Positions 1 through 58,328 of a DNA stretch of 64,000 bases are shown here, one piece after another. The notes under the pieces are model-generated. The model had not been told where the DNA came from. It searched no databases and worked only from the letters and a program-made list of their open reading frames with translations. This DNA is from Muricea muricata. Taxonomy: Eukaryota > Cnidaria > Anthozoa > Malacalcyonacea > Plexauridae. Position 1 is the stretch's first letter; every line of letters begins with the position of its first letter. Where the stretch lies: the NCBI GenBank assembly GCA_963855995.1, contig OY979729.1:8140115-8204114 (forward strand), in the 5' to 3' direction. The position numbers were made by a program, and so were the translations under genes.

Positions 1-277
1 AGTACAGATGTTGGCCAATAATAAGTATAAGTAACTACAATTTTTAATTTTAAAAGTTTTCTATTGATGCCTTGATACAGTAAATACTTTACCAGAGTTC
101 TTCGTATTACATCGACTTGAAAAAGTTTTAAGTCACATGAAGCTTTTAGTTGATACTATGCAATTTCAAATTTTACAGACTTCTTAATTAACATGCCAAA
201 TTTACCTTGTTGAACATAAGGTCTTTCCTGAGAAAAAGTAAAACTGTCTGGCATTATATGGAGTAGAATAATTTAAA

Positions 278-475
278 TTAGTTTGAGACTTTGATTTGAT
301 AACAATTTTGATTTGTACTATTTACAATACAAGTGACCGGGTTGTATCGGATATACAAACCCAAGCTGAAGGCGAGATATCTGACATACACAGATGCGAA
401 TGTTGTAAATGGCCTGTGAAACTCGTCAATTTTATACATCAGATCTATAGCAAAGTGATTTTGAAAATACCGATT
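278..475 (-). CDS. Possible terminal exon, left-arm copy
   Basis: Mirror of 21639-21836. A frame of 65 codons plus stop follows an acceptor-like 'CATCTTACAG'. No family is recognised. See the right-arm entry for the protein description. Chance open frames of this size do occur in AT-rich DNA. Confidence 0.2.
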   Translation of the reverse strand, partial: NRYFQNHFAIDLMYKIDEFHRPFTTFASVYVRYLAFSLGLYIRYNPVTCIVNSTNQNCYQIKVSN

Positions 476-796
476 CTGTAAGATGAGAAAATGATTTCTT
501 TTGTGTTTCCTGTATGATTTATTACTTTATAAGTTTCTTAATTAAAATTACAACATATTGCCTACTGGAACTTTTTATATTGTTTGGTTGTGGTGAATTT
601 GTATTTTGGCAATTGAAATATTTCTGAATTTGTATGTGCATTTCCTTTGCTTCAGTTCAAGTTTACATTTCAAATATTCCACTTTGTAATACTTGCATGG
701 TAATAATAATATAAGAAAACAGGTTTACATGGCTCTTGAATATAGTCTTTTCAACAAGTAAGTAAAGATGAATTTATACTTCAAAGAGATATGTTC

Positions 797-1320
797 CTAA
801 CCTGACAATGGTACCTTCCAAAAAGACTAAATTTAAATTGATTCTTCGAATAAATTTTTTACTTTTCAATCCAAGATCAATCTAAGTTATGTATTTCTAC
901 TTTTATTTTGGTCTCTTTAACACTGAAACTATCAATTGTATATAAAGCAACTTCACTATCGAGTGACTTCATTAGTTGCTGGGCAAAGCCAAAGCATTGA
1001 TTTTTCGGCTGTTTTCAATGAAAAATAGAATTTTGCCCAAAGTTATCTCAAATAAATTATCACAATTTGAACAAAAAGCTTCTGTTCTTGTGCCCACCAG
1101 AAAAATGAGATGTCTGAGACTTTCTTTGTATTTTTTTGCGAAAAATAGATCGCATGCAGTGTTATGCAAAGAAAAGTGTAAGAGATTGGTTTCTGAAAAA
1201 TGTCGTGTTACACACAATATTCTAAAAATGCTTGGTTTTTATTCTATGTATTTTTGAATTTTTTGTTAAAAAAAATAAAGGTAGCAATGTTTAGTGCATT
1301 TCACATTGTCAGGTTAGAAA
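797..1320. mobile_element. Short element with terminal inverted repeats (also 20794-21317)
   Basis: The ends read 'CCTAACCTGACAATGG' and its near complement 'CATTGTCAGGTTAG', about 520 bp apart, and the same unit is mirrored in the right arm. An 81-codon frame inside it (972-1217 minus, 20897-21142 plus) is open in both arms but matches no family I recognise. It is most likely a non-autonomous DNA element. Confidence 0.45.
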
Positions 1321-1611
1321 CGCAATAAGAAAAATGTGGCTCCGAACATTACAGCTTGGTCAATTTGGAATTTATAAAAAAATCGTTTCTTCGTTGTTTT
1401 TCGACGTTTTGAAGGGTTGTTTCGAGTACAAAAAAGTATTTTTAGGAAGAATTATGTGCCCACATTACATGTCTCAAAGCCATCAAAATTCGTTGGTAAT
1501 TCGTGCATGTATTTTTTCTGACTTATAAAAGCACAATTGATTAAAAATGATATTTTTCTTTTGACAAAAATACCTTTCTTCTGTGAGGCTGGCTGTATTT
1601 GAAAAAGCGTT

Positions 1612-1672
1612 GGTCAACGCTCCGCCAAAACTCGTGGGTTTTCTCCGGGTACTCCGGTTCTTCCCACTGGGA
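1612..1672 (+). repeat. SINE-like fragment with CCGGGTACTCCGG block
   Basis: It contains 'CGTGGGTTTTCTCCGGGTAC' and 'TCCGGTTCTTCCCACTGG', the same block found behind the tRNA-like head at 7919-8075. It is mirrored near 20440-20500. It appears to be a truncated SINE body. Confidence 0.5.
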
Positions 1673-1730
1673 GAGTTGACAGGGTAGTTACATATGGTTA
1701 TAAAAATGTGACTAACTTTTGAAAACCTTT

Positions 1731-1877
1731 CTACTTAGACTTGTTAAGCCTTCTCGTCATCTCTATCAGTTGCATGTTTTGAGCCACATGTTTTTCTTTG
1801 TAATTGTGAAACAACTCGTTATATGCTGGGTAAACCTTTGCAAAACTCTCAAAATTTATCACTTCAAGTTGTTTCAT
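1731..1877 (-). CDS. Short open frame, left-arm copy (48 aa)
   Basis: Mirror of 20235-20381, also open from ATG to TAG. It differs from the right copy by at least two amino-acid changes (Glu to Val and Lys to Thr in the charged second half), so the two arms do not show clear protein-level constraint here. No family recognised. Confidence 0.2.
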   Translation of the reverse strand: MKQLEVINFESFAKVYPAYNELFHNYKEKHVAQNMQLIEMTRRLNKSK

Positions 1878-3122
1878 TGTTATAATATATTTTGAAGTAT
1901 AAACATTTACTTACGTTGAAAAGACCCAAGTTTTTTAGGACTTTGTTCATTCACTTGTGTTATTGTTCTCTCTGCCATGTTCTGTTTTCTTCTGTTGTTA
2001 TTTTAATAAGTACAATGTGTGGTAGTTAATCTCTTTTTATTGTTATTCAAATTGTATGTAATCTTTACAAATTTTTTTAATAAATTGTTTACAAAATTTA
2101 CTTGTGACCCCTTTTTAATTAAAAATTCAATTCCCATGGGAATTGAGAAATTGAATAAAAAAAATCCCCCTACCCCGGCCAGCTCCCCAAGTGCCACTTC
2201 CACCTAAGTAGAAGTACTTATACATGTAGTACAAGTACTTCTACTTATTCACGGTGGAAGTAGCACTCGGAGAACTGGCCGGGGTAGCCGGCAAAGAGAA
2301 GACCAACTTTGCAAGTGCTAATACAATTGCTAAGTTGATCTTCCCTAGAGAGCAGCCGCGCGTACCTAACAAATTAAAACAACAAACGTTAGTGACTTAA
2401 GTACTTAGCATGCAAATTTGATTCCCAAAGCCAAAATGTCAAGTGCCCCCCGCTGATCCTACCAACTGCCTACCTGCCTCAGTTCTAAGCTGTCTTCCTC
2501 AGTTCTAAGCTCCTGCATTCCATTCGTTACCTTCACTTTCCTCACCATCGCACAGTCACTCACAGCTGATAAACCCGCATGCACCACCACCACCCCGACT
2601 GCCACCCAATTTCGAAAATTAAAAGAGTTAAAATTTCGGTAAAGTATGCATTTTAAATGCAATTTATTTGGATATTTTAGATCAAACGTAAACAGAAAAA
2701 GCTCGTACATAAAAACAGGTGAGAATTCTATTTAAAATTTGCTTGCAAAATATAAAACTTAATTCGCATTTTTCTTAGTTAATAGTATAGATCAATTTAG
2801 TTGATGTTGAAACCTACTCTTAACTGTTTTGTTAGAAGTGACGACAGATTTTGGTTTTTAAGCATACTTTCAAAAATTTTAATTCCTTTAATAAACCTAA
2901 CCCCATGCAACTTACACACGGCGCACACCCTCGCAGTCCATACATTTAGCTAATAAATTACGTTATAAACAAAAAAGCAAAATAAAAAGATAAATTACGT
3001 TATCTCTAGCTACTTAAACCCACTTAGACTGAGTTTTTGATTGAATTTTCAAACGTAAAACCTTAGCTGAATGGGCATGGGCTTTTCGTTGTGTTAACTG
3101 TTCCGGAGTAAATATAAACCTG

Positions 3123-3362
3123 GGGCCGGTTGTATCAAAGGCGTTTAGCTTAAACGGTGGATAAGTGAAATTTAAAAATCAGTTTTACACCTAGTACGGA
3201 ACCGAAATTATGAGTTGAAATAGAATAAATATTTAGTTTTATATATAATTGTTCTTCTCAGGTCAAATAACTTCAGCTGGTTTGTTTATACAACATGGAA
3301 ACGTGTTTCATATTTTTGACTTATCCACCGTTTAAGCTAAACGCCTTTGATACAACCGGCCC
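3123..3362. mobile_element. GGGCCGGTTGT-ended MITE, left-arm copy
   Basis: This 240-bp element has about 45-bp near-perfect terminal inverted repeats beginning GGGCCGGTTGTATCAAAGGC. It is flanked by a 3-bp duplication CTG. Related copies lie at 18750-18989, 34823-35061 (flanks CAG) and a lone end at 32831-32880. A 3-bp CWG-type duplication suits the PIF/Harbinger group, which is inference. Confidence 0.85.
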
Positions 3363-3862
3363 CTGATACTTACCAAAGTCCAAGGCTGGGTCAAATAAGC
3401 ATGAGAATTAGGCAAAAATAAAAAGCAATTGAAACTCAACAGATTCACTAAAGTTTTTTTTTTTGGCAACTTATATCCTTAAGTGTAGATGACATGCAAT
3501 TTTTAATGCCGTAATTCTCACACTTATTTAACCGAAACGCCTTCATTTGCATGGTACCTCGCAGCTGCTCTCAAACCACCTTCGTAATTTGCTTTAGTGT
3601 ACACAAACAATGACTTCATTGTTCCTGCTTACCAAAACAAATCTGAAAGCACCAAGATACTTATCATATTAATAATCAAAGAGGATTCGCATTATGCAGT
3701 AATTACCATAAACAGACGCATCACCATTGAAACAAAGCATGCCGTATTCCCATGGGAATTTAAAATGCACAAAAAAATATAATGATCCTACTGATTTGCA
3801 TGGATGTATGAACCAAATTAGCTAAGAAACAAAGAAATGATATATTCCCTTGGGAATTTAAT

Positions 3863-4092
3863 GTAGCAAAAAGATGGCGGGTGTTGATTTTACCAGAATG
3901 CCTTGCGGTCTGAAATCGTTTAAAAACTTAAGGTAAATTAACCTCGTTTGAGGAACAGACAGATAGGTTATTTTGTCACTTGTGTTAAAATTCCGTCCAT
4001 TAGCTTATCTTAAATATCATTTCACTGGTATTCTTGATTGATACCCGCATTAAATTCTGGTAAAATCGACATGCCACCATCTGTTTTGCTAC
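3863..4092. mobile_element. GTAGCAAAA-ended MITE, left-arm copy
   Basis: Its ends are GTAGCAAAAAGATGGCGG and the complement of GTAGCAAAACAGATGG, followed inside by a shared 'GATTTTACCAGAAT'. About 230 bp long and non-coding. Copies are at 18020-18249 and 23711-23945. Confidence 0.75.
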
Positions 4093-4168
4093 GGTGAATT
4101 GGAATACAAGTCACATTTTCTCGCTTTTTAACCAGAGAACACATTCTTTAAAGGTAGAACGACGGAAT

Positions 4169-4406
4169 TGATCGTTTGCAATCGACGCCATCTTTGTTGA
4201 CGTTTGAAACACATGGCAACCACAAAGTATCTATTCATTATATCTGATCCTATCGAGCCATACATCTTTAAAGTATCATTCATAATACGCTAAAACTAAC
4301 GATGAAATAGTAAATTGACACAAGTACTTCGCTGTAAACAGCTGAAGTAATCTGCAGAGTCAACCAAGATGGCGCCCAATCACACGAAATGACGTCATGT
4401 GCAAAC
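4169..4406. mobile_element. Dispersed ~240-bp repeat, left-arm copy
   Basis: It is nearly the same sequence as 36535-36775 outside the palindrome and is mirrored at 17706-17943. The ends are imperfect inverted repeats around 'CGACGCCATCTT' and 'CCAAGATGGCGCC', and the unit finishes with 'ATGACGTCATGTGCAAAC'. This is a non-coding MITE-like unit. Confidence 0.7.
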
Positions 4407-4995
4407 CAAGAATAGTGACCAAATGCATCAACTATAATTTAGTGGCATTATTACGAAACTTATTTTTGTAAAACGTTCAATCCTACATGTTATTTTGTTT
4501 TGTTTTTAGAAATATCCAAATCCAAATGTTAGAGACGAAATTTCCAGGCGTTAAGGTATTGTTTCTTTAAAAAATATTGTCGACATTTACCATATTTTTA
4601 CCTGTTTTTTGACTCGAAAATTGACTGCCAAACTCCTAGATATTTTATTTAATTATTTTGTTGAATGTATTTGATATCAATGTTATTTCAATCCAATTTT
4701 TTTCACTTAATTTGCTGTCTTTTCTTTTTCATTAACGAGAAATATCTATTAAATCCTCTTTGATCCCTCAATAATAAGTATCTTGTTTTCTACTAACTTG
4801 CACATTACCACTACTTTCTATTACAATGTCGTGTCTTCTTATTCTTGTGGATTGTTGTTTTGTGGGTCTTGCCGTCCAGGATCGTTCATTCTTTTCTCTT
4901 CTTGTGCGTTTTTTTCACATCCCATCACCCTTTGCAATAGTAGAAAGAATTAAGTCATGAGATGATAGTTACGAATAATTTATAAACTATAACAT

Positions 4996-5129
4996 GATAA
5001 GTTTCTTGTACGTTTCCATGGTGAATACAATATACTTATTAAGCTTTGTGGAAACACCACGTAAATTTATTATTGCAATAGTAAATTTACGTGGTGTTTC
5101 CACAAAGCTTAATAAGTAAACTATAACAT
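4996..5129. mobile_element. 134-bp hairpin insertion present only in the left arm
   Basis: The right arm reads straight through this site. The insertion leaves a 13-bp direct repeat 'TAAACTATAACAT' on both sides. Inside, 5034-5069 and 5082-5117 are perfect 36-bp inverted complements around a 12-nt loop. It is a tiny foldback MITE with no coding capacity. A related 'GGTGTTTCCACAAA' stretch occurs near 63570. Confidence 0.85.
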
Positions 5130-5493
5130 ATTAAGCACTTATTGGATGAGGTTTTTGTGATATGCGAAATGATCAATGTCGAGGTAAGAGTTATCAGCCG
5201 AGCCGAAGGCGAGTCAGATAACTCTTACCAAGACATTGATAATTTTGCATATCACAAAAACCGAATCCGATAATTGCTTTATTATACATTGTAAGTCTTT
5301 TTCCTCGAGCAATTGACGAATTTCGCCTTCGGAAGAGCTTAAAAAGCAAGATGCCATAACATGAAACAGAAAATATCGAAAAAATGTTGTTGCCATGCCA
5401 ACCATTGATGCCAACGAATACCGCATACTGTAATAATCTGCACCGTAGGCTCAACATGCAGATAACTCAGTTATCTGCTAGCAGATAACTGAG

Positions 5494-5723
5494 CCATAGA
5501 ATAAGAATACATAGAAGGGCCACTCGCGTCGGAGCCTTTGGAGTTTTTGAAGCCGCGCATGTCGCATTACGCACGTTATTAGCATTTTCTCAGCCAGTCA
5601 ATTGCATTTTCTGGCCAATAGGAATGCTGAACTGGCTGGTGGCAGCCAGTAAACTGCATAAACATAGTGTGACATGTTGCACTGCTGAGTGGCCCTTCTA
5701 TGTATTCTTATTGTATGACTGAG
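5494..5723. mobile_element. 230-bp MITE present only in the left arm
   Basis: Perfect 26-bp terminal inverted repeats lie at 5500-5525 and 5687-5712, starting AATAAGAATACATAGAAGGG. Flanking 'ACTGAG' is duplicated, and the right arm has a single copy at the empty site. Diverged relatives appear at about 53950-54165 and 55790-55905, sharing 'GCATGTCGC' and 'ACTGCTGAGTGGCCC'-type blocks. Confidence 0.85.
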
Positions 5724-5802
5724 TTATCTGCAGATTGTGTGATAGTCGCATTTATCTGCATACAACTGACCAATCACAACGCATAAAACAACTGCAATGT
5801 AT

Positions 5803-6163
5803 AGTAATTAACACTTATTGACTGAGACCGAGGGAAACAGTATGTTTTGTGGACCAGAGACTGTCGATGTCGAGGGTCCACAAAACATACTGCTTTCCCG
5901 AGGTCTCAGTCAATAAGTATTTTATTATATACTGAGTGCCAAAAGAGAAGAAAAGTACCACAAATCAATCAAACATGTGTAAAAAGGATTACCTTTTACC
6001 TGACATGGCTACGTGAGGCTTTGTGGATTTGTTGTCTACCGGTGAATAAAAGTAATGTCCATCGCTTAGCTACGTTGCCAGGGAGACAATAGAATTTCTC
6101 CACTATCACGTGATACGTTCTTAACCAATAAGAAACAGGAATAAATGAACTTTGACACTCAGT
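5803..6163. mobile_element. Compound insertion of two short elements, left arm only
   Basis: About 360 bp are missing from the right arm, which reads directly from 'GCAATGTATA' into 'ATAAAATAG'. The first half is a hairpin whose stem contains 'GACTGAGACC' and 'CAGTATGTTTTGTGG' and their complements. The second half has ends 'TACTGAGTGCCA' and 'TGACACTCAGTA'. This looks like two nested or adjacent non-autonomous elements. Confidence 0.7.
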
Positions 6164-6753
6164 ATATTATAAAATAGTATTAATTAGGCCGGCCAAATTA
6201 TTGTGTAAGCTGTTAATATGAAATTTTTTTATTAAAATCTCGAGAATCATTAATAAATCGTGAGCAAAACACAAAAGAAAATCATAGCCGTGAAGGAGTC
6301 TTTATTTCTCACACGCACACAACTTGCAGCTACCCTAATTTATGAATTTAGATTAAAATATCTCGAGAATTAAACAACACGTAAGGAATGTGTAAATTCT
6401 TAAAGCTCTTTCGAACAATAAAAATTAATATCTCGCACTAATCTCTCTCAAAAGCTCTCAAATTTATTGCCGATATCTCTTTGAGAATTACTGTGCACGT
6501 GAAATGTAACTTATATCAAAACTAGCTTACTTCAAGCTGTTTGGGAATCAAGATTTTACGTGTCAACGAGATCAAATATGAATCTAAGATGGCAGACAGC
6601 GCATTAAATTTCTATCTTTACGACCAACTCCCCAACGAAAGGCTTTAATTCGCTCGAAAGTCGAATTTTGTTTTTTTTTTATTGTTTCAGGTAGTGAAAG
6701 ATCCTGTGTGCTTTTTACAGTACTACCGACACTAGCAACGTTAGTGCGAGATG

Positions 6754-6914
6754 TTAATTTTTATTGAAACAAAAGCTGAACTGCTAAAAAAATGGAAACG
6801 ACAAGATAAAATAAAAAAACTTACTTTCACTCTATCTTTGGATCTTCTTGGCTTCGGTTGTTCTCGTTTCATCATGCTGTTTATGGTTTCATCTGGTTGG
6901 CGCACTCTCTTCAT
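6754..6914 (-). CDS. Candidate 39-aa two-exon micro-gene, left-arm copy
   Basis: Mirror of 15925-16086. Coding parts would be 6825-6914 and 6754-6783, with a 41-nt intron bounded by GTAAGT and TTTTTTTAG. Exon 1 is identical to the right arm. Exon 2 has one Arg to Cys change. Both splice sites and the stop are kept. No family recognised. Confidence 0.25.
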
Positions 6915-7110
6915 GGAGCATCAAGGCGGTCCAGTAGGTAACTAGCTCACTCGTGTCCAGTCAACCAACATAAAATAAGGAGAAAATTAATGTTACAAAA
7001 TATTTTAGAATATAGGACACTAAGCTTTAATTGAATTGACTTTAACAAACCGTACATTGTGATAGTATTTGCATCTTAACATCTGATGGAGACGGCTTGT
7101 GATTTACTTC

Positions 7111-7470
7111 TTATGTCGATATGAATTCTTTCCCATCTTGTTGCATCATTAGTTGATGGTTGTTGTATTCACTTTTTACTTGGCATTCTTTGAAAAAAAA
7201 ATTACGATGTTCAGAAAACTGTTTACAAGATAAGCAAAGAAAACTACGTTCACAAGCATTAGAGAGGACTAAGTAATTATAATAGGCGTGACAGGTCACA
7301 GAGGTTAGTCGACGAAGAAACTCATGGACAAATTCCCGGCATGATGATACCCCGATAGCAAGAAATACAGCAAGTGTAGAACGTGTACGTGTGAGCTTAA
7401 ACTGTATGTATGCAACTCCAAGAAAAGCGCAACACAAAATGGCGGAATTTAAAGACATTTCTGGTGTCAT
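7111..7470 (-). CDS. Unrecognised 119-aa open frame, intact only in the left arm
   Basis: The frame runs from ATG at 7468-7470 to a stop at 7111. The N-terminal half has a hydrophobic stretch (about residues 8-24) and a second weakly hydrophobic stretch (about 33-42), and the C-terminal half is Cys-rich and polar. The right-arm copy has TAG in place of a Tyr codon at 15428-15430. No family recognised, no promoter or poly(A) evidence. It may be a chance frame. Confidence 0.2.
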   Translation of the reverse strand: MTPEMSLNSAILCCAFLGVAYIQFKLTRTRSTLAVFLAIGVSSCREFVHEFLRRLTSVTCHAYYNYLVLSNACERSFLCLSCKQFSEHRNFFFKECQVKSEYNNHQLMMQQDGKEFIST

Positions 7471-7918
7471 TTCCAGTTCCCTAACTTTCGCGGACAAATA
7501 TATTTATATATTTTTCTCAAATTTTTTTGAAGTAAATCTAGATGGATTTTGTGAATAAACAAATTAAAAAAAGTATTGCCCACGTTAGGAAACTAGAACG
7601 GGCGCCCAAGAATGCCCACAATTTCTCCAATCTGGATTATATTTATTGATTGCGCAAATGACTGATAAAAAATAAGAGAGTAATAAAATACCAAATGGTT
7701 TCCTCTTCAAGATAGTGTCATACATGCGCGCGGCATTTCGGGATATTTGGGAAAACTCGTGTTGAAGTTGAACCTAAGGCAACATGCCAAGTACATGGAT
7801 GACGCTATCCTGCTCAGGAAACTATTTAGTAATTGTCTTACAAAATGATGACAGTGAAACACAAGTCAACGCCACGGCATTTAAATTTCTCGTGTAGGAT
7901 TGTTTGATCCTGCACAGT

Positions 7919-8075
7919 AATAGCCAAGTGGCGCAATCGTTAGAGCAAACGCCTATCACATGTGAGGTCGTGGGTTCAATCCTTACTTCAGACTCGTGAC
8001 ACCCATGTGAGGAGTTAGTCAGTCGTGGGTTTATTCCGGGTACTCCGGTTTCCGAATGTTGACTGGATGGTTAAA
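7919..8075 (+). repeat. tRNA-headed SINE-like unit, left-arm copy
   Basis: The head resembles a tRNA: A-box-like 'GTGGCGCAATCGTTAGAGC' and B-box-like 'GGGTTCAATCC' about 45 nt apart, matching Pol III internal promoter spacing. The 3' part carries 'CCGGGTACTCCGGTTTCC', a block seen again at 1612-1672. The acceptor stem does not pair, so this is not a functional tRNA gene. Confidence 0.65.
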
Positions 8076-8262
8076 ATTGTAAAATATCAGTAATCACCGG
8101 AACACGGGTACTTAACTAAACTGCTGACGATGAGGCGGAACTCATAATGAATTAATGAAAATGTGTTTCACTGTAGTTATCATATAATGTAATTGCCAAG
8201 CTGAATGAATAATTCTCCAGTAACTACGTCATATGAATAACTTACAATTATGAGAGTAGTGG

Positions 8263-8545
8263 GGGGGGGGGGCAGCATAAAGATTGAAGTAGTGTCAAGG
8301 AAGGGGTACTACCCTGACGGGTACTAGGCGAAGAAGTAGAGTAAACAGGAGGAAGAAGATTAAATTGGAGTAAATAAGGGGGATTGGGGTAAAGAAGGGG
8401 AGAAGCAGGATAAAGAAACCAGTGGAAGGGGGTGCTATCCTGGAAGGAGTACCCGGGAAAGAAGAGGGTGAACATGAGGAAAAGTAGATTGGAGAAAAGA
8501 AAGGGGAAATTAAACGGATCAGGAAATTCAGACTTGCAATTCAAA
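8263..8545. other. Purine-rich low-complexity tract (mirrored at 14293-14576)
   Basis: On the plus strand this is an almost pure A/G tract containing a G run at 8262-8272 and repeats of 'GGGGTACT', 'GGAAGGAGTACCCGGG' type. The long frame on the other strand (8248-8544) is a by-product of the C/T-rich composition and is Pro/Leu/Ser-rich, so I do not call a gene. Confidence 0.6.
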
Positions 8546-8876
8546 TGAAAGGCAGCTCATTGGTCATGTAAACACTCGTTGAATCATGGTTCTCGCTTGC
8601 CTTTAGCTTGGAATCATCTTTGAATTTGAACTGAAAGTCTGAATTTGCATGTTTCTTGTATAGAGTGCAGTGTATCAGAACAGAAGAGGTTTTGAAGAAA
8701 AAGAAAGAAAGAATAAAAGTAAGTTAAAATTTGTCAAGAATAATGAAGAAACTATTGGTACAGCACTTGATACATGATGATAATCATCATTATAAACTCT
8801 CTATTAATCCAGGGGGGGGGGGTATAATAGAGAATTTGCAATGATAGTAAGTATATTGTAATATTTGGGTTTTTAC

Positions 8877-8961
8877 CACTAAATCCTCTTGAAAGTTCTT
8901 TTTGGCTGTGGCTTCTCTCATCACAGTTGTCTGTGCTTGTCTTGCAAAATCTCTGGAATAT
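8877..8961 (-). CDS. Candidate internal exon, left-arm copy
   Basis: Mirror of 13878-13962. It is bounded by an acceptor 'ACGTTATAG' and a donor GTAAAAAC. No family recognised. Confidence 0.2.
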
Positions 8962-9295
8962 CTATAACGTGAAGGTCAATATTTAAGATTAGAAAAATAG
9001 AAACCGTAAAATAGAAAGAAATTTAAATCGTGGCGAATACTTTTTACGGTCTTGCTGGCATGACAAAAAGAGAGTATAGATTTATAAGATCATGTTGATT
9101 TATCCTTTATCTGAACTATATTTAACTTAGATTTTAAAATAGATTTCACCCTGGTAAGCAGACCGAATGGGTTTTCAAACAAGATAACATTTAATGACTA
9201 AGACGTGCACAGAATAGTTAGAGAATGCTTACATGTCGAATAAAAATCCAATACTTTTAATGTCCAACTACACAATAGCGATTTTCGTTGCATTT

Positions 9296-9436
9296 CTAGA
9301 CTGGAGAAGAAGACGACGCCATTTTGATTTTGATTTCTCCCGACAACGGCAGATTTGTCTTCGCAATTTTTTTCCATTTCTTCGTCGTTTTAGCTCCAAT
9401 TTGCTCGTTGTGTTTCTTTCGTACCTTCCTCGCCAT
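9296..9436 (-). CDS. Candidate 46-aa basic protein or first exon, left-arm copy
   Basis: Mirror of 13403-13543 with an identical protein. See the right-arm entry. Confidence 0.22.
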   Translation of the reverse strand: MARKVRKKHNEQIGAKTTKKWKKIAKTNLPLSGEIKIKMASSSSPV

Positions 9437-10099
9437 TTCCGTACAATCAATGGACATTTATACTCAAGATTAAGACTGTATTGAGACTTTCAAAATGTTC
9501 GTCAGGAGACATAAAAATCGAAGCTTCTTCTTCGGGTTGCAGAAGCAAATGACGTCAGACGACCTTTGCCCGCCAGCAAATACCCGTATGTATAACATTC
9601 AATGATCTTTTTAGGAAGCTGAAAATCAGTTTTTATTGCGCGAACGAAATGTTTTTGCCATTATTTCTTACTCAGGTCTTTGTTCTACTACTTTACTTCC
9701 AGTTTAGTTAGGTAACTTGCCAAAAGAAACGCCTGTAAGGGACAATTTTGCATTTTTTTTTTATTTCGATGCTGATGAAGAAGAGAAGACTCGTTAGAGC
9801 TTTCATTGGCAAATATCTTTCCCTCCGTGGCCGAGAGGTAAAGACAACTGTCTTGACTTCGATTTTGGGTGGATCGAGGACCGGTCCAGTTCAACTGAGT
9901 TTGGTAAGAATTTAATTCTGATCGGTGCTCGATCCACCCAAAACTGAATTCAAAGCTGGGCGTGGAGTGCAGGAAAACACTAGGCAGTACCGCGAGGCCA
10001 AGGAGGCAAACGTTATTTTCCTAGTGTTGTTAACTAATATTTAAGCAAATTTCATTAACTTGACTGTTGGGGACAGACCTGTAGGGTTGGTGCATTGAA

Positions 10100-10245
10100 G
10101 ACTTCTCGTCGTTATTTCCCTTCGTTCAAGAAGACAAGTTGTCTTCATCGAGAAATAACGACGAAAAGACTTCAAGACACCACTAAACCACTACACTTTA
10201 AAGCTACAGTGTAGTGGTTTAGCTAGCTAAACCACTACACTGTGC
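10100..10245. repeat. Short internal hairpins near palindrome centre (mirrored 12594-12740)
   Basis: Two stacked hairpins: 'AGACTTCTCGTCGTTATTTC' with its near complement, and 'GTGTAGTGGTTTAGCTAGC' with its complement. Non-coding secondary structure inside the arm. Confidence 0.6.
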
Positions 10246-11146
10246 CAATAATATATGGCTGACTTCTTCCTAACGCTTACGGTACGACCATGGATGCGCA
10301 AAGATGCGCAAACACATTAAAGCCTTGAAAGCAAGTGTTTTCTTTTAGGAAAGAATCAAGGACGACAACGCTTACTAAATCAAAGCCGTCTAGTCATGTT
10401 TTAAGTACTTCAGCTATGTTTAACGATCTTTTACCAGATCTTTGCAAGAGGAAAAGTAAAATTTTGCATCATTATTATTAACTTTCCGTCAGTCGTTTCT
10501 TTCTTGATCGAGCATTATATGCCATTGTGTTCAGTGTCCTTGATATAGGAGCCATATACTTATGGCCTTGGGTTTAATTCCCAAACACTGAATGGCAGTG
10601 TTTTGCTCTTCCAATGAGATAACAAGATGGCACTGTAGAACGCGTGGTTTTATATAAGCTACGAGCGTCAAGATATCCTTGATAGGTAACTATTGATCCT
10701 ACAATGGACACTTATGTTCACTGCCAATAGGAACGTTTCCAACTCACAGCTTGTACATAATGGATTTTATAGGTTGTGTCACAAGGAAACTGCAGTTCGG
10801 TCGTAAAATCAACTTGTTTTCAAGGTTGCCGGGTTTTAAACATTACTGACACTGTTAATGTTGTAGCACGGAATTGTAAAACAACGGCGGCAATGCAGTT
10901 TTCTTGTGCCATAACCTGTAAAATGGGTGGTTTTATCATTTATATAAGCTACGACCGCCAAGCTTTATCCTTGATAGGAAACAATTGATCCCACCAACGA
11001 CATTTGTATTCTCTACCGATAGGAACGTTTGAGACTTACAGCTTGTACATAACGCATTTTATCGGTGAGTCGTAAAACCAACCTGTTACTGCTCAGCAAA
11101 CTACCAGTTCCCTCGATCAACGATAGTCGATGAAGCTTGGCGCTCG

Positions 11147-11721: not shown

Positions 11722-13402
11722 CGAGCGCCAAGCTTCATCGACTATCGTTATCGAGGGAAATGGTAGTTTGCTGAGCAGTAACAGGTTGGTTTTACGACTC
11801 ACCGATAAAATGCGTTATGTACAAGCTGTAAGTCTCAAACGTTCCTATCGGTAGAGAATACAAATGTCGTCGGTGGGATCAATTCTTTCCTATCAAGGAT
11901 AAAGCTTGGCGGTCGTAGCTTATATGGTTATGGCACAAGAAAACTGCATTGCCGCCGTTGTTTTACAATTCCGAGCTACAACATTAACAGTGTCAGTAAT
12001 GTTTAAAACCCGGCAACCTTGAAAACAAGTTGATTTTACGACCGAACTGCAGTTTCCTTGTGACACAACCTATAAAAGCCATTATGTACAAGCTGTGAGT
12101 TGAAAACGTTCCTATTGGCAGTGAACATAAGTGCCATTGTAGGATCAATAGTTACCTATCAAGGATATCTTGACGCTCGTAGCTTATATAAAACCACGCG
12201 TTCTACAGTGCCATCTTGTTATCTCATTGGAAGAGCAAAACACTGCCATTCAGTGTTTGGGAATTAAACCCAAGGCCATAAGTATATGGCTCCTATATCA
12301 AGGACACTGAACACAATGGCATATAATGCTCGATCAAGAAAGAAACGACTGACGGAAAGTTAATAATAATGATGCAAAATTTTACTTTTCCTCTTGCAAA
12401 GATCTGGTAAAAGATCGTTAAACAGCTGAAGTACTTAAAACATGACTAGACGGCTTTGATTTAGTAAGCGTTGTCGTCCTTGATTCTTTCCTAAAAGAAA
12501 ACACTTGCTTTCAAGGCTTTAATGTGTTTGCGCATCTTTGCGCATCCATGGTCGTACCGTAAGCGTTAGGAAGAAGTCAGCCATATATTATTGGCACAGT
12601 GTAGTGGTTTAGCTAGCTAAACCACTACACTGTAGCTTTAAAGTGTAGTGGTTTAGTGGTGTCTTGAAGTCTTTTCGTCGTTATTTCTCGATGAAGACAA
12701 CTTGTCTTCTTGAACGAAGGGAAATAACGACGAGAAGTCTTCAATGCACCAACCCTACAGGTCTGTCCCCAACAGTCAAGTTAATGAAATTTGCTTAAAT
12801 ATTAGTTAACAACACTAGGAAAATAACGTTTGCCTCCTTGGCCTCGCGGTACTGCCTAGTGTTTTCCTGCACTCCACGCCCAGCTTTGAATTCAGTTTTG
12901 GGTGGATCGAGCACCGATCAGAATTAAATTCTTACCAAACTCAGTTGAACTGGACCGGTCCTCGATCCACCCAAAATCGAAGTCAAGACAGTTGTCTTTA
13001 CCTCTCGGCCACGGAGGGAAAGATATTTGCCAATGAAAGCTCTAACGAGTCTTCTCTTCTTCATCAGCATCGAAATAAAAAAAAAATGCAAAATTGTCCC
13101 TTACAGGCGTTTCTTTTGGCAAGTTACCTAACTAAACTGGAAGTAAAGTAGTAGAACAAAGACCTGAGTAAGAAATAATGGCAAAAACATTTCGTTCGCG
13201 CAATAAAAACTGATTTTCAGCTTCCTAAAAAGATCATTGAATGTTATACATACGGGTATTTGCTGGCGGGCAAAGGTCGTCTGACGTCATTTGCTTCTGC
13301 AACCCGAAGAAGAAGCTTCGATTTTTATGTCTCCTGACGAACATTTTGAAAGTCTCAATACAGTCTTAATCTTGAGTATAAATGTCCATTGATTGTACGG
13401 AA

Positions 13403-13543
13403 ATGGCGAGGAAGGTACGAAAGAAACACAACGAGCAAATTGGAGCTAAAACGACGAAGAAATGGAAAAAAATTGCGAAGACAAATCTGCCGTTGTCGGG
13501 AGAAATCAAAATCAAAATGGCGTCGTCTTCTTCTCCAGTCTAG
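13403..13543 (+). CDS. Candidate 46-aa basic protein or first exon, right-arm copy
   Basis: The frame starts ATGGCGAGGAAG and ends TAG. The peptide is very Lys/Arg-rich in its first 25 residues (begins MARKVRKKHNEQ) with a Ser-rich tail, and it is identical in both arms. A donor-like AAG|GTACGA after the fourth codon means it could instead be a short first exon. A consensus CRE octamer TGACGTCA lies about 120 bp upstream (near 13283), as in a promoter. No family recognised and no downstream exon is proven. Confidence 0.25.
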   Translation: MARKVRKKHNEQIGAKTTKKWKKIAKTNLPLSGEIKIKMASSSSPV

Positions 13544-13877
13544 AAATGCAACGAAAATCGCTATTGTGTAGTTGGACATTAAAAGTATTGGATTTTTATT
13601 CGACATGTAAGCATTCTCTAACTATTCTGTGCACGTTTTAGTCATTAAATGTTATCTTGTTTGAAAACCCATTCGGTCTGCTTACCAGGGTGAAATCTAT
13701 TTTAAAATCTAAGTTAAATATAGTTCAGATAAAGGATAAATCAACATGATCTTATAAATCTATACTCTCTTTTTGTCATGCCAGCAAGACCGTAAAAAGT
13801 ATTCGCCACGATTTAAATTTCTTTCTATTTTACGGTTTCTATTTTTCTAATCTTAAATATTGACCTTCACGTTATAG

Positions 13878-13962
13878 ATATTCCAGAGATTTTGCAAGAC
13901 AAGCACAGACAACTGTGATGAGAGAAGCCACAGCCAAAAAGAACTTTCAAGAGGATTTAGTG
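13878..13962 (+). CDS. Candidate internal exon, right-arm copy
   Basis: An 85-nt segment lies between an acceptor 'CACGTTATAG' and donor GTAAAAAC. One frame reads as a charged helix-like peptide (starts YSRDFARQAQ, ends FQEDLV) without stops. It lies about 330 bp downstream of the MARK-type frame and is conserved in both arms. Phase does not join simply to that frame. No family recognised. Confidence 0.25.
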
Positions 13963-14762
13963 GTAAAAACCCAAATATTACAATATACTTACTATCATTG
14001 CAAATTCTCTATTATACCCCCCCCCTGGATTAATAGAGAGTTTATAATGATGATTATCATCATGTATCAAGTGCTGTACCAATAGTTTCTTCATTATTCT
14101 TGACAAATTTTAACTTACTTTTATTCTTTCTTTCTTTTTCTTCAAAACCTCTTCTGTTCTGATACACTGCACTCTATACAAGAAACATGCAAATTCAGAC
14201 TTTCAGTTCAAATTCAAAGATGATTCCAAGCTAAAGGCAAGCGAGAACCATGATTCAACGAGTGTTTACATGACCAATGAGCTGCCTTTCATTTGAATTG
14301 CAAGTCTGAATTTCCTGATCCGTTTAATTTCCCCTTTCTTTTCTCCAATCTACTTTTCCTCATGTTCACCCTCTTCTTTCCCGGGTACTCCTTCCAGGAT
14401 AGCACCCCCTTCCACTGGTTTCTTTATCCTGCTTCTCCCCTTCTTTACCCCAATCCCCCTTATTTACTCCAATTTAATCTTCTTCCTCCTGTTTACTCTA
14501 CTTCTTCGCCTAGTACCCGTCAGGGTAGTACCCCTTCCTTGACACTACTTCAATCTTTATGCTGCCCCCCCCCCCCCACTACTCTCATAATTGTAAGTTA
14601 TTCATATGACGTAGTTACTGGAGAATTATTCATTCAGCTTGGCAATTACATTATATGATAACTACAGTGAAACACATTTTCATTAATTCATTATGAGTTC
14701 CGCCTCATCGTCAGCAGTTTAGTTAAGTACCCGTGTTCCGGTGATTACTGATATTTTACAAT

Positions 14763-14919
14763 TTTAACCATCCAGTCAACATTCGGAAACCGGAGTACCC
14801 GGAATAAACCCACGACTGACTAACTCCTCACATGGGTGTCACGAGTCTGAAGTAAGGATTGAACCCACGACCTCACATGTGATAGGCGTTTGCTCTAACG
14901 ATTGCGCCACTTGGCTATT
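14763..14919 (-). repeat. tRNA-headed SINE-like unit, right-arm copy
   Basis: Reverse-complement mirror of 7919-8075 with the same A-box-like and B-box-like blocks. Confidence 0.6.
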
Positions 14920-15368
14920 ACTGTGCAGGATCAAACAATCCTACACGAGAAATTTAAATGCCGTGGCGTTGACTTGTGTTTCACTGTAATCATTTTGTAA
15001 GACAATTACTAAATAGTTTCCTGAGCAGGATAGCGTCATCCATGTACTTGGCATGTTGCCTTAGGTTCAACTTCAACATGAGTTTTCCCAAATATCCCGA
15101 AATGCCGCGCGCATGTATGACACTATCTTGAAGAGGAAACCATTTGGTATTTTATTACTCTCTTATTTTTTATCAGTCATTTGCGCAATCAATAAATATA
15201 ATCCAGATTGGAGAAATTGTGGGCATTCTTGGGCGCCCGTTCTAGTTTCCTAACGTGGGCAATACTTTTTTCAATTTGTTTATTCACAAAATCCATCTAG
15301 ATTTACTTCAAAAAAATTTGAGAAAAATATATAAATATATTTGTCCGCGAAAGTTAGGGAACTGGAAA

Positions 15369-15727
15369 TGACACCAGAAATGTCTTTAAATTCCGCCATT
15401 TTGTGTTGCGCTTTTCTTGGAGTTGCATAGATACAGTTTAAGCTTACACGTACACGTTCTACACTTGCTGTACTTCTTGCTATCGGAATATCATCATGCC
15501 GGGAATTTGTCCATGAGTTTCTTCGTCGACTAACCTCTGTGACCTGTCACGCCTATTATAATTACTTAGTCCTCTCTAATGCTTGTGAACGTAGTTTTCT
15601 TTGCTTATCTTGTAAACAGTTTTCTGAACATCGTAATTTTTTTTTCAAAGAATGCCAAGTAAAAAGTGAATACAACAACCATCAACTAATGACGCAACAA
15701 GATGGGAAAGAATTCATATCGACATAA
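15369..15727 (+). pseudogene. Broken copy of the 119-aa left-arm frame
   Basis: This is the mirror of 7111-7470. A TAG replaces a Tyr codon at 15428-15430 (codon 20), so the frame is interrupted, while the rest remains open to the same stop. If the left frame is a real gene this copy is a pseudogene. If not, both are non-coding. Confidence 0.25.
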
Positions 15728-15924
15728 GAAGTAAATCACAAGCCGTCTCCATCAGATGTTAAGATGCAAATACTATCACAATGTACGGTTTGTTAAAGTC
15801 AATTTCAATTAACGCTTAGTGTCCTATATTCTAAAATATTTTGTAACATTAATTTTCTCCTTATTTTATGTTGGTTGACTGGACACGAGTGAGCTAGTTA
15901 CCTACTGGACCGGCGTGATGTTCC

Positions 15925-16086
15925 ATGAAGAGAGTGCGCCAACCAGATGAAACCATAAACAGCATGATGAAACGAGAACAACCGAAGCCAAGAAGATCCA
16001 AAGATAGAGTGAAAGTAAGTTTTTTGATTTTATCTTGTCGTTTCTATTTTCTTTAGCAGTTCAGCTTTCGTTTCAATAAAAATTAA
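15925..16086 (+). CDS. Candidate 39-aa two-exon micro-gene, right-arm copy
   Basis: Exon 1 is 15925-16014 (30 codons, start MKRVRQPDETINSMMK, rich in Lys/Arg and Pro) and ends at a strong donor GTAAGT. A 42-nt intron ends in 'TATTTTCTTTAG'. Exon 2 is 16057-16086 (QFSFRFNKN then TAA), and AATAAA overlaps its last codons. Both arms keep splice sites, frame and stop. The peptide matches no family I know. A 42-nt intron would be short for an animal, so exon 1 may instead join a distant exon. Confidence 0.28.
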
Positions 16087-17705
16087 CATCTCGCACTAAC
16101 GTTGCTAGTGTTGGCAGTGCTGTAAAAAGCACACAGGATCTTTCACTACATTAAACAATAAAAAAACAAAATTCGACTTTCGAGCGAATTAAAGCCTTTC
16201 GTTGGGGAGTTGGTCGTAAAGATAGAAATTTAATGCGCTGTCTGCCATCTTAGATTCATATTTGATCTCGTTGACACGTAAAATCTTAATTCCCAAACAA
16301 CTTGAAGTAAGCTAGTTTTGATAGAAGTTACATTTCACCTGCAAAGTAATAGTTGAAGAGATATTGGTAATAAATTTGAGAGAGCTTTTGAGAGAGATTA
16401 GTGCGAGATATTAATTTTTATTGTTCGAAAGAGCTTTAAGAATTTACACATTCCTTACGTGTTGTTTAATTCTCGAGATATTTTGATTTAAAATCATAAA
16501 TTAGGGTAGCTGCAAGTTGTGTGCGTGTGAGAAATAAAGACTCCTTCACGGCTATGATTTTCTTTTGTGTTTTGTTCACGATTTACTAATGATTCTCGAG
16601 ATTTTAATAAAAAAATTTCATATTAACAGCTTACACAATAATTTGGCCGGCCTAATTAATAAACTATTTTATTATACATTGCAGTTGTTTTATGCCTTGT
16701 GATTGATCAGTTGTATGCAGATAAATGCGACTATCACACAATCTGCAGATAACTCAGTTATCTGCTAGCAGATAACTGAGTTATCTGGATGTTGAGCCTA
16801 CGGTGCAGATTATTACAGTATGCGGTATTCGTTGGCATCAATGGTTGGCATGGCAACAACATTTTTTCGATATTTTCTGTTTCATGTTATGGCATCTTCC
16901 TTTTTAAGCTCTTCCGAGGGCGAAATGCGTCAATTGCTCGAGGAAAAAGACTTAAAATGTATAATAAAGCAATTATCGGATTCGGTTTTTGTGATATGCA
17001 AAATTATCAATCTCTCGGTAAGAGTTATCTAACTCGCCTTCGGCTCGGCTGATAACTCTTACCTCGACATTGATAATTCCGCATATCACAAAAACCTCAT
17101 CCAATAATTGTTTAATATGTTATAGTTTATAAATTACTCGTAACTATCATCTCATGATTTAATTCTTTCTACTATTGCAAAGGGTGATGGGATGTGAAAA
17201 AAACGCACAAGAAAAGAAAAGAATGAACGATCCTGGACGACAAGACCTACAAAACAACAATCCACAAGAATGAGAAGACACGACATTGTAATAGAAAGTA
17301 GTGGTAATGTGCAAGTTAGTAGAAAACAAGATACTTATTATTGAGGGATCAAAGAGGATTTAATAGATATTTCTCGTTAATGAAAAAGAGAAGACAGCAA
17401 ATTAAGTGAAAAAAATTGGATTGAAATAACATTGATATCAAATACATTCAACAAAATAATTAAATAGAATACCTAGGAGTTTGGCAGTCAATTTTCGAGT
17501 CAAAAAACAGGTAAAAATATGGTAAATGTCGACAATATTTTTTAAAGAAACAATACCTTAACGCCTGGAAATTTCGTCTCTAACATTTGGATTTGGATAT
17601 TTCTAAAAACAAAACAAAATAACATGTAGGATTGAACGTTTTACAAAAATAAGTTTCGTAATAATGCCACTAAATTATAGTTGATGCATTTGGTCACTAT
17701 TTTTG

Positions 17706-17943
17706 GTTTGCACATGCCGTCATTTCGTGTGATTGAGCGCCATCTTGGTTGACTCTGCAGATTACTTCAGCTGTTTACAGCGAAGTACTTGTGTCAATTT
17801 ACTATTTCATCGTTAGTTTTAGCGTATTATGAATGATACTTTAAAGATGTATGGCTCGATAGGATCAGATATAATGAATAGATACTTTGTGGTTGCCATG
17901 TGTTTCAAACGTCAACAAAGATGGCGTCGATTGTAAACGATCA
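17706..17943. mobile_element. Dispersed ~240-bp repeat, right-arm copy
   Basis: Mirror of 4169-4406 and similar to 36535-36775. Confidence 0.7.
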
Positions 17944-18019
17944 ATTCCGTCGTTCTACCTTTAAAGAATGTGTTCTCTGGTTAAAAAGCGAGAAAATTTG
18001 ACTTGTATTCCAATTCACC

Positions 18020-18249
18020 GTAGCAAAACAAATGGTGGCATGTCGATTTTACCAGAATTTAATGCAGGTATCAATCAAGAATACCAGTGAAATGATATTT
18101 AACATAAGCTAATGGACGGAATTTTAACACAAGTGACAAAATAACCTATCTGTCTGTTCCTCAAACGAGGTTAATTTACCTTAAGTTTTTAAACGATTTC
18201 AGACCGCAAGGCATTCTGGTAAAATCAACACCCGCCATCTTTTTGCTAC
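18020..18249. mobile_element. GTAGCAAAA-ended MITE, right-arm copy
   Basis: Mirror of 3863-4092 with the same GTAGC...GCTAC ends. Confidence 0.75.
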
Positions 18250-18749
18250 ATTAAATTCCCAAGGGAATATATCATTTCTTTGTTTCTTAGCTAATTTGGT
18301 TCATACATCCATGCAAATCAGTAGGATCATTATATTTTTTTGTGCATTTTAAATTCCCATGGGAATACAGCATGCTTTGTTTCAATGGTGATGCGTCTGT
18401 TTATGGTAATTACTGCATAATGCGAATCCTCTTTGATTATTAATATGATAAGTATCTTGGTGCTTTCAGATTTGTTTTGGTAAGCAGGAACAATGAAGTC
18501 ATTGTTTGTGTACACTAAAGCAAATTACGAAGGTGGTTTGAGAGCAGCTGCGAGGTACCATGCAAATGAAGGCGTTTCGGTTAAATAAGTGTGAGAATTA
18601 CGGCATTAAAAATTGCATGTCATCTACACTTAAGGATATAAGTTGCCAAAAAAAAAAAACTTTAGTGAATCTGTTGAGTTTCAATTGCTTTTTATTTTTG
18701 CCTAATTCTCATGCTTATTTGACCCAGCCTTGGACTTTGGTAAGTATCA

Positions 18750-18989
18750 GGGGCCGGTTGTATCAAAGGCGTTTAGCTTAAACGGTGGATAAGTCAAAAA
18801 TATGAAACAAGTTTCCATGTTGTATAAACAAACCAGCTGAAGTTATTTGACCTGAGAAGAACAATTATATATAAAACTAAATATTTATTCTATTTCAACT
18901 CATAATTTCGGTTCCGTACTAGGTGTAAAACTGATTTTTAAATTTCACTTATCCACCGTTTAAGCTAAACGCCTTTGATACAACCGGCC
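18750..18989. mobile_element. GGGCCGGTTGT-ended MITE, right-arm copy
   Basis: Mirror of 3123-3362, with the same long terminal inverted repeats. Confidence 0.85.
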
Positions 18990-19563
18990 CCAGGTTTAAT
19001 TTACTCCGGAACAGTTAACACAACGAAAAGCCCATGCCCATTCAGCTAAGGTTTTACGTTTGAAAATTCAATCAAAAACTCAGTCTAAGTGGGTTTAAGT
19101 AGCTAGAGATAACGTAATTTATCTTTTTATTTTGCTTTTTTGTTTATAACGTAATTTATTAGCTAAATGTATGGACTGCGAGGGTGTGCGCCGTGTGTAA
19201 GTTGCATGGGATTAGGTTTATTAAAGGAATTAAAATTTTTGAAAGTATGCTTAAAAACCAAAATCTGTCGTCACTTCTAACAAAACAGTTAAGAGTAGGT
19301 TTCAACATCAACTAAATTGATCTATACTATTAACTAAGAAAAATGCGAATTAAGTTTTATATTTTGCAAGCAAATTTTAAATAGAATTCTCACCTGTTTT
19401 TATGTACGAGCTTTTTCTGTTTACGTTTGATCTAAAATATCCAAATAAATTGCATTTAAAATGCATACTTTACCGAAATTTTAACTCTTTTAATTTTCGA
19501 AATTGGGTGGCAGTCGGGGTGGTGGTGGTGCATGCGGGTTTATCAGCTGTGAGTGACTGTGCG

Positions 19564-19638
19564 ATGGTGAGGAAAGTGAAGGTAACGAATGGAATGCAGG
19601 AGCTTAGAACTGAGGAAGACAGCTTAGAACTGAGGCAG
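19564..19638 (+). CDS. Possible short first exon, right arm (mirrored 2474-2548)
   Basis: ATG opens 25 codons (start MVRKVKVTNG) that end at a donor-like CAG|GTAGGC. Part of it is a small internal duplication of 'AGCTTAGAACTGAGG'. No downstream exon identified, so this is weak. Confidence 0.12.
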
Positions 19639-20133
19639 GTAGGCAGTTGGTAGGATCAGCGGGGGGCACTTGACATTTTGGCTTTGGGAATCAAATTTGC
19701 ATGCTAAGTACTTAAGTCACTAACGTTTGTTGTTTTAATTTGTTAGGTACGCGCGGCTGCTCTCTAGGGAAGATCAACTTAGCAATTGTATTAGCACTTG
19801 CAAAGTTGGTCTTCTCTTTGCCGGCTACCCCGGCCAGCTCTCCGAGTGCTACTTCCACCGTGAATAAGTAGAAGTACTTGTACTACATGTATAAGTACTT
19901 CTACTTAGGTGGAAGTGGCACTTGGGGAGCTGGCCGGGGTAGGGGGATTTTTTTTATTCAATTTCTCAATTCCCATGGGAATTGAATTTTTAATTAAAAA
20001 GGGGTCACAAGTAAATTTTGTAAACAATTTAGTGAAAAAATTTGTAAAGATTACATACAATTTGAATAACAATAAAAAGAGATTAACTACCACACATTGT
20101 ACTTATTAAAATAACAACAGAAGAAAACAGAAC

Positions 20134-20205
20134 ATGGCAGAGAGAACAATAACACAAGTGAATGAACAAAGTCCTAAAAAACTTGGATCTTTTCAACGTA
20201 AGTAA
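20134..20205 (+). CDS. Micro-frame or first exon ending at GTAAGT, right arm (mirrored 1907-1978)
   Basis: ATGGCAGAGAGAACAATAAC begins a 23-codon frame that reaches TAA, or a 64-nt exon part ending at the donor C|GTAAGT (20198). It is followed 30 bp later by the frame at 20235. Conserved in both arms. No family recognised. Confidence 0.18.
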   Translation: MAERTITQVNEQSPKKLGSFQRK

Positions 20206-20234
20206 ATGTTTATACTTCAAAATATATTATAACA

Positions 20235-20381
20235 ATGAAACAACTTGAAGTGATAAATTTTGAGAGTTTTGCAAAGGTTTACCCAGCATATAACGAGTTG
20301 TTTCACAATTACAAAGAAAAACATGAGGCTCAAAACATGCAACTGATAGAGATGAAGAGAAGGCTTAACAAGTCTAAGTAG
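20235..20381 (+). CDS. Short open frame, right-arm copy (48 aa)
   Basis: The frame runs from ATG (MKQLEVINFESF...) to TAG. The second half is charged and helix-prone, ending LNKSK. It could be a tiny coiled-coil peptide or a terminal exon. Both arms keep the frame, but with at least two replacement changes. No family recognised. Confidence 0.22.
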   Translation: MKQLEVINFESFAKVYPAYNELFHNYKEKHEAQNMQLIEMKRRLNKSK

Positions 20382-21638
20382 AAAGGTTTTCAAAAGTTAG
20401 TCACATTTTTATAACCATATGTAACTACCCTGTCAACTCTCCCAGTGGGAAGAACCGGAGTACCCGGAGAAAACCCACGAGTTTTGGCGGAGCGTTGACC
20501 AACGCTTTTTCAAATACAGCCAGCCTCACAGAAGAAAGGTATTTTTGTCAAAAGAAAAATATTATTTTTAATCAATTGTGCTTTTATAAGTCAGAAAAAA
20601 TACATGCACGAATTACCAACGAATTTTGATGGCTTTGAGACATGTAACGTGGGCACATAATTCTTCCTAAAAATACTTTTTTGTACTCGAAACAACCCTT
20701 CAAAACGTCGAAAAACAACGAAGAAACGATTTTTTTATAAATTCCAAATTGACCAAGCTGTAATGTTCGGAGCCACATTTTTCTTATTGCGTTTCTAACC
20801 TGACAATGTGAAATGCACTAAACATTGCTACCTTTATTTTTTTTTTAACAAAAAATTCAAAAATACATAGAATAAAAACCAAGCATTTTTAGAATATTGT
20901 GTGTAGCACGACATTTTTCAGAAACCAATCTCTTACACTTTTCTTTGCATAACACTGCATGCGATCTATTTTTCGCAAAAAAATACAAAGAAAGTCTCAG
21001 ACATCTCATTTTTCTTGTGGGCACAAGAACAGAAGCTTTTTGTTCAAATTGTGATAATTTATTTGAGATAACTTTGGGCAAAATTCTATTTTTCATTGAA
21101 AACAGCCGAAAAATCAATGCTTTGGCTTTGCCCAGCAACTAATGAAGTCACTCGATAGTGAAGTTGCTTTATATACAATTGATAGTTTCAGTGTTAAAGA
21201 GACCAAAATAAAAGTAGAAATACATAACTTAGATTGATCTTGGATTGAAAAGTAAAAAATTTATTCGAAGAATCAATTTAAATTTAGTCTTTTTGGAAGG
21301 TACCATTGTCAGGTTAGGAACATATCTCTTTGAAGTATAAATTCATCTTTACTTACTTGTTGAAAAGACTATATTCAAGAGCCATGTAAACCTGTTTTCT
21401 TGTATTATTATTACCACGCAAGTATTACAAAGTGGAATATTTGAAATGTAAACTTGAACTGAAGCAAAGGAAATGCACATACAAATTCAGAAATATTTCA
21501 ATTGCCAAAATACAAATTCACCACAACCAAACAATATAAAAAGTTCCAGTAGGCAATATGTTGTAATTTTAATTAAGAAACTTATAAAGTAATAAATCAT
21601 ACAGGAAACACAAAAGAAATCATTTTCTCATCTTACAG

Positions 21639-21836
21639 AATCGGTATTTTCAAAATCACTTTGCTATAGATCTGATGTATAAAATTGACGAGTTTCACAG
21701 GCCATTTACAACATTCGCATCTGTGTATGTCAGATATCTCGCCTTCAGCTTGGGTTTGTATATCCGATACAACCCGGTCACTTGTATTGTAAATAGTACA
21801 AATCAAAATTGTTATCAAATCAAAGTCTCAAACTAA
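21639..21836 (+). CDS. Possible terminal exon, right-arm copy (65 codons)
   Basis: After an acceptor-like 'TTCTCATCTTACAG' the frame stays open for 65 codons (start NRYFQNHFAIDLMYK, end CYQIKVSN) before TAA. It contains aromatic-rich and moderately hydrophobic stretches. The mirror at 278-475 is also open. No family recognised and no partner exon proven. Confidence 0.22.
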   Translation, partial: NRYFQNHFAIDLMYKIDEFHRPFTTFASVYVRYLAFSLGLYIRYNPVTCIVNSTNQNCYQIKVSN

Positions 21837-22113
21837 TTTAAATTATTCTACTCCATATAATGCCAGACAGTTTTACTTTTTCTCAGGAAAGACCTTATGT
21901 TCAACAAGGTAAATTTGGCATGTTAATTAAGAAGTCTGTAAAATTTGAAATTGCATAGCATCAACTAAAAGCTTCATGTGACTTAAAACTTTTTCAAGTC
22001 GATGTAATACGAAGAACTCTGGTAAAGTATTTACTGTATCAAGGCATCAATAGAAAACTTTTAAAATTAAAAATTGTAGTTACTTATACTTATTATTGGC
22101 CAACATCTGTACT

Positions 22114-52527: not shown

Positions 52528-52686
52528 ATGCGTTACGTGGCCGCATATCTGTTAGCCAACCTTGGTGGCAATGAATCACCGTCTGCAAAAGACATCAAGA
52601 AAATCTTGGAAAGTGTGGGAATCAATGTCGATGATGAAAAACTGAACAAAGTTGTTTCTGAATTAGATGGCAAAGATATCAATGAG
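52528..52686 (+). CDS. RPLP2: RPLP2 first coding exon
   Basis: It encodes residues 1-53, from [14 protein letters not shown] to DGKDINE, and ends at donor GAG|GTCTTT. It contains most of the helical P1/P2 dimerisation domain. Confidence 0.96.
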
Positions 52687-58320: not shown

Positions 58321-58328
58321 GGTTGTAC

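Follow-up and report, generated by a model that had tools for sequence, protein, structure and literature searches.

The first 22,113 base pairs (bp) of a 64,000-nucleotide stretch of the Muricea muricata genome (assembly GCA_963855995.1, contig OY979729.1, positions 8,140,115 to 8,204,114 of the forward strand; this whole stretch is referred to as the window) are occupied by a palindrome with near-identical arms. Comparison of the window with itself by BLAST returned two long inverted matches, 17117-22113 with 4995-1 (4998 columns, 99.26% identity) and 11926-16676 with 10916-6165 (4759 columns, 98.80%), together with two shorter pieces, 16753-17129 with 5493-5117 (377 columns, 96.8%) and 11716-11925 with 11154-10942 (213 columns, 97.2%). 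The palindrome matches are far above chance level; the longest near-identical inverted pair beyond the palindrome in the same list spans 546 columns. Self-BLAST and an alignment of the arms agree on a left arm at 1-11146 (plus strand), on a right arm at 11722-22113 (minus strand) that is its reverse complement, and on pairing that persists at base 1, as an earlier note on this DNA had described. The 575-bp spacer at 11147-11721 reported there is reproduced exactly by the innermost perfect stem (11119-11146 with 11722-11749, 575 nucleotides in between); it occurs once in the window, between the inverted copies. Position 22113, which had been given as the end of the palindrome, does pair with base 1, but it is the mirror of the first base of the window and not a border. 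The outer border is out of view, and the arms may extend past 22113 and leftward of base 1. The window contains no N run and no non-ACGT base, so that no scaffold gap is seen; a gap may have been filled.

The arms were aligned over 10384 sites, with three large blocks present only in the left arm excluded. They differ at 96 of these sites (0.92%; 58 transitions and 38 transversions), including four mismatches at 6173-6177 which adjoin the edge of a 363-bp block, might represent alignment noise and were kept in the counts. In addition there are 13 small insertions or deletions (indels), one of which is 25 bp long and five of which alter the length of a run of A, T or G. The mismatches are unevenly distributed, with 16 in 3999 sites (0.40%) in the outer tract 1-4000, 70 in 2770 (2.53%) in 4001-7500, 4 in 3196 (0.13%) in 7501-10700 and 6 in 419 (1.43%) in the innermost tract 10701-11146, which also has the 25-bp indel and two 1-bp indels. 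Over 41 bins of 250 sites (the last, incomplete bin was dropped) the ratio of variance to mean is 4.37, a value reached by none of 20000 uniform random placements. Uniform ageing after duplication does not fit this patchiness and was rejected, and an extra process beyond a single duplication is thus needed; the mosaic would fit two alleles or gene conversion from arm to arm. The arms had been called young, which holds for parts of them (0.13%) but not for the tract at 4.0-7.5 kilobases (kb; 2.53%). The point changes and three insertions listed in the earlier note correspond to the mismatches and the left-only blocks, but the right arm also lacks 25 bp that are present in the left arm at 10917-10941 (plus strand). 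Mismatches near the centre include 10982/11885, 10996/11871 and 11107/11760. Differences between the arms continue to positions 11107 and 11118, about 30-40 bp from the junction, so that the arms can hardly represent one molecule read twice; the argument against a simple hairpin read, insertions included, is thereby upheld.

The spacer, which prolongs the left arm in apparently parental order, had been regarded as non-palindromic. It does separate the arms, but it is not unrelated to them, as 11333-11663 (repeat X', plus strand) is an older inverted copy of 10298-10623 in the left arm (repeat X, minus strand; 83.5% over 333 columns of the match with 11663-11333). In a single-strand DNA fold of 10298-11663, a length at which no shuffle control was made, X and X' pair as one long interrupted stem. 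This inverted pair points to an older inverted duplication underneath the young one. A further partial copy of X (11670-11721, plus strand, 52 bp, 86.5% identical to 11506-11557) stops at the right junction. A young junction templated directly by paired X repeats was rejected, as this predicts a restart at about 10404 (via the partial copy) or about 10240 (via extension of the X/X' pair), not at 11146. The left junction is spanned by another putative element, Y2 (10908-11183), which has terminal inverted repeats with matching ends, GCCATAACCTGTAAAATG and GCTATAACCTGTAAAATG; from end to end Y2 is 62% self-complementary, and no target duplication could be established for it. Both ends of Y2 are kept across 11146/11147, whereas its copy in the right arm is cut at 11722 and lacks the 25 bp near the other end. 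If Y2 is one element, the left arm and the spacer thus look parental in their order and the right arm looks like the copy, which would place the novel junction at 11721/11722. The best shared run past the point where the arms part, in a search with starts within three bases of both ends, is the 5-bp sequence GTTGT, which is imperfect (offsets of 3 bases and 1 base); among 20000 random pairs taken from the flank, 2.1% did as well.

The three large left-only blocks (134, 230 and 363 bp) all fall within the most diverged tract. The 134-bp block (4983-5116, plus strand) consists of hairpin sequence (5026-5075 with 5076-5125) flanked by two 13-bp direct repeats, TAAACTATAACAT. The 230-bp block (5488-5717, plus strand) has terminal inverted repeats of about 31 bp and 6-bp direct repeats (ACTGAG), and appears clearly transposon-like, judged by its inverted ends (5481-5525 with 5687-5731) and the empty site in the right arm; a test in which the coordinates of the ends were set wrongly gave 13 of 32 and does not enter into this assignment. 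The 363-bp block (5808-6170, plus strand) combines hairpin sequence (about 5799-5932, 79% complementary) with an adjacent second stretch (about 5927-6167) that has TA-rich flanks and ends agreeing at 16 of 20 bases. The 134- and 363-bp blocks may instead have been lost from the right arm rather than gained in the left. Two elements common to both arms recur in the flank, at 34820-35064 and 36533-36778, which identifies them as dispersed repeats. A perfectly self-complementary sequence of 38 bp was also observed in the left arm, at 10206-10243.

In all six frames of 1-11162, covering the left arm, no Pfam family was found at expectation values (E) of up to 1. Coding cargo was thus not found in the left-arm scan, and split or fast-evolving exons could hide one. 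In the whole window, ARAGORN found no transfer RNA and no Rfam family reached its gathering threshold. A GC content of 36%, introns and many hairpin elements mark the host as a eukaryote, probably an animal. Six of seven open reading frames (ORFs) in the flank had no match in Pfam and one had four sub-threshold matches (best E 0.019); for 22114-49000, Pfam coverage consisted of four ORFs rather than of complete frames. A plus-strand gene in the flank, with two coding exons (roughly 52528-52688 and 53503-53691), contains the domain of 60S acidic ribosomal proteins (E 3.2e-18); judged by the start of the protein, it is probably RPLP2. A weak match to a cobalamin adenosyltransferase (MMAB-like) exon lies on the minus strand at about 60568-60654 (24.3 bits, with a cut-off of 24).

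The longest stop-to-stop ORF listed (57463-58455, minus strand, 331 codons) shows long hydrophobic stretches by eye and had no Pfam match; a 285-residue stretch of it gave nine pattern stretches in viral contigs, none of which was confirmed, and no match in plasmids. No match was found for 8000-11900 of the window in phages, or for a terminal repeat of a dispersed element in viral and genome contigs. At 23950-25867, self-BLAST detected two inverted copies of about 546 bp that lie 827 bp apart and are 99.3% identical; by its sequence this resembles an element of recent origin whose terminal inverted repeats are long, and no target duplication was found at the ends inspected. Other repeats in the flank are a tandem array at 33887-34537 (97-bp unit, 6.7 copies, 97% matches) and, at 40594-41282, a 235-bp inverted pair (98%) that includes parts of two opposed arrays of 21-bp units.

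We narrowly favour a genuine large inverted duplication, generated by fold-back or template switch, over two joined alleles, and would put it at about an even chance; this and the grading of the joined alleles below are judgements and not computed odds. In this scenario, the site already contained many inverted repeats, and an end that broke or stalled at 11721, within the partial X repeat, would have turned back onto its own chromosome or onto the homologue. Copying would have restarted at 11146 inside Y2, where the inverted homology is imperfect and does not exceed about 5 bp, and the arm would have been copied in reverse, while the 575 bp separating the two points would have remained as the spacer. 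Later exchange between the arms, or copying from the other haplotype, might then have created the patchwork of near-identical tracts beside the old tract at 4.0-7.5 kb, where the left arm bears the insertion blocks; arm-to-arm conversion or a homologue template would have to be added to account for the mosaic. The arms, the spacer, the asymmetry of the two junctions, the patchiness and the left-only blocks are directly observed; the existence of such a molecule in the organism and its origin in this way are what we infer. A real molecule is favoured because the join has almost no overlap and no N run; overlap-based joining normally leaves a shared overlap. It is also favoured because Y2 is cut on one side only, which suggests one parental side and one break. 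Several observations weigh against a genuine duplication. A lone duplication clock predicts uniform and not patchy divergence, and the mean divergence of the arms, their insertion differences and the mosaic can resemble outbred alleles. The 5-bp homology is imperfect, and its 2% is a post hoc figure; the X repeats are not used by the young junction; and no spacer in the human series discussed below is as short as this one. Moreover, 18% of the flank falls inside some inverted pair, so that the repeat setting is not special and was rejected as proof of cause; the repeat-rich centre is suggestive as a setting for the junction, not proof. The outer border lies outside the view, and the evidence comes from sequence alone.

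The strongest competitor, already named in the earlier note and given somewhat less than an even chance by us, is that two alleles of one locus were joined head to head by the assembler, the scaffolder or a gap filler at a repeat-rich spot. A mean difference of 0.92% that is patchy as in allelic coalescence, with the insertion differences in the most diverged tract, would be expected of alleles, which explain the patchiness more simply than a duplication does; the nested inverted repeats at the centre offer a spot where the graph could turn round, and artificial palindromes in draft assemblies provide a precedent (PMC5916493, PMC7953838). However, there is no N run, at most 5 bp of sequence are common at the join, and the arms differ nearly up to it, which would require a chimera between alleles or faulty gap filling. 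The evidence therefore cuts both ways: the N-free join with little overlap speaks for a real molecule, and the patchy, allele-like divergence for a misjoin. That a read or library artefact of a single molecule (a missed adapter or in vitro fold-back) was taken into the contig seems very improbable to us. The near identity of the tract 7501-10700 (4 mismatches in 3196 sites) would be in keeping with it, and reads from the other allele, if used in polishing, could blur the argument from arm differences, but the tract nearer to the centre has 6 mismatches in 419 sites as well as the 25-bp and two 1-bp indels, three insertion blocks follow further out, and with 96 mismatches the arms are not identical but for errors. 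We see equally little chance for a hybrid in which a short inverted repeat at the centre is real and the assembler linked the outer arms across haplotypes; divergence is indeed higher in the inner 446 bp than in the next 3.2 kb (1.43% versus 0.13%), but there is no sharp border where the real part would stop.

Inverted duplications of this sort are known in kind. In a human series, all 21 sequenced junctions described had spacers, of 766-70,466 bp, and the junctions showed inverted homology of 2-8 bp in 13 cases, homologous repeats in three and insertions in five (PMC3907307). In these human cases fold-back is recognized by a short spacer present in single copy and by scant inverted homology (PMC3907307), a pattern that would favour fold-back here. 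The M. muricata palindrome shares with the human duplications with disomic spacers the inverted copy, the short single-copy spacer and possibly the scant inverted homology at the far end of the spacer; the human cases differ in being large clinical duplications beside terminal deletions, with spacers of at least 766 bp, whereas here the spacer has 575 bp, the homology is imperfect and the arms are seen only to the window edge. In yeast, spaced inverted repeats with up to 25% heterology are described as driving fold-back in single-stranded DNA (PMC10164571), a range into which the X pair (83.5%) falls. A replication-based template switch is described as an alternative mechanism (PMC10766186). 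The young junction at 11721/11722 would fit either mechanism, with a loop of 575 bp.

Palindromes with gene conversion reportedly occur on willow sex chromosomes. Gene-converting sex-chromosome palindromes such as those of the human Y (PMC7953838) resemble the present one in having long arms of about 99% identity round a short spacer, and conversion could give the patchy identity; they differ in that here no protein domain was found in the arm scanned and conversion is only a possibility. The gene-order palindromes of the 2013 Adineta vaga assembly and of Folsomia candida likewise carry both copies on a single assembled sequence in head-to-head order, and their reality has been doubted for at least A. 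vaga (PMC5916493, PMC5490193, PMC7953838). They were detected by gene collinearity, in contrast to the present junction, which is seen base by base; no gene was found in the arm scanned here. Nowell et al. recovered 23 palindromic blocks from the A. vaga assembly of 2013 and no such block from A. ricciae; they suspect scaffolding errors behind some of the collinearity breaks (PMC5916493); Jaron et al. state that faulty scaffolding can create artificial palindromes, and their own list includes misassemblies (PMC7953838). According to the gapless paper, two haplotypes are an alternative reading of some unbridged inverted repeats (PMC10166144). Palindromes in Botryllus, on the other hand, were judged real after checks of depth, duplicated BUSCO genes and CRAQ (PMC12448946). 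An unlikely but more far-reaching version of the duplication would be a real invertebrate palindrome outside sex chromosomes, with arms that extend far outside the window and stay similar through patchy gene conversion between them, grown at a centre where an older inverted duplication had taken place; perhaps the ribosomal protein and cobalamin genes would then also be doubled head to head.

If the palindrome is an artefact, it would represent a worked case of allele misjoining that is indistinguishable from a real palindrome by sequence alone, and would call for caution with palindrome counts in draft genomes. If it is real, a fold-back junction could be inspected base by base in an organism other than the usual models, at a site where a younger inverted repeat overlies an older one, and the patchy identity of the arms could serve to measure conversion between them.

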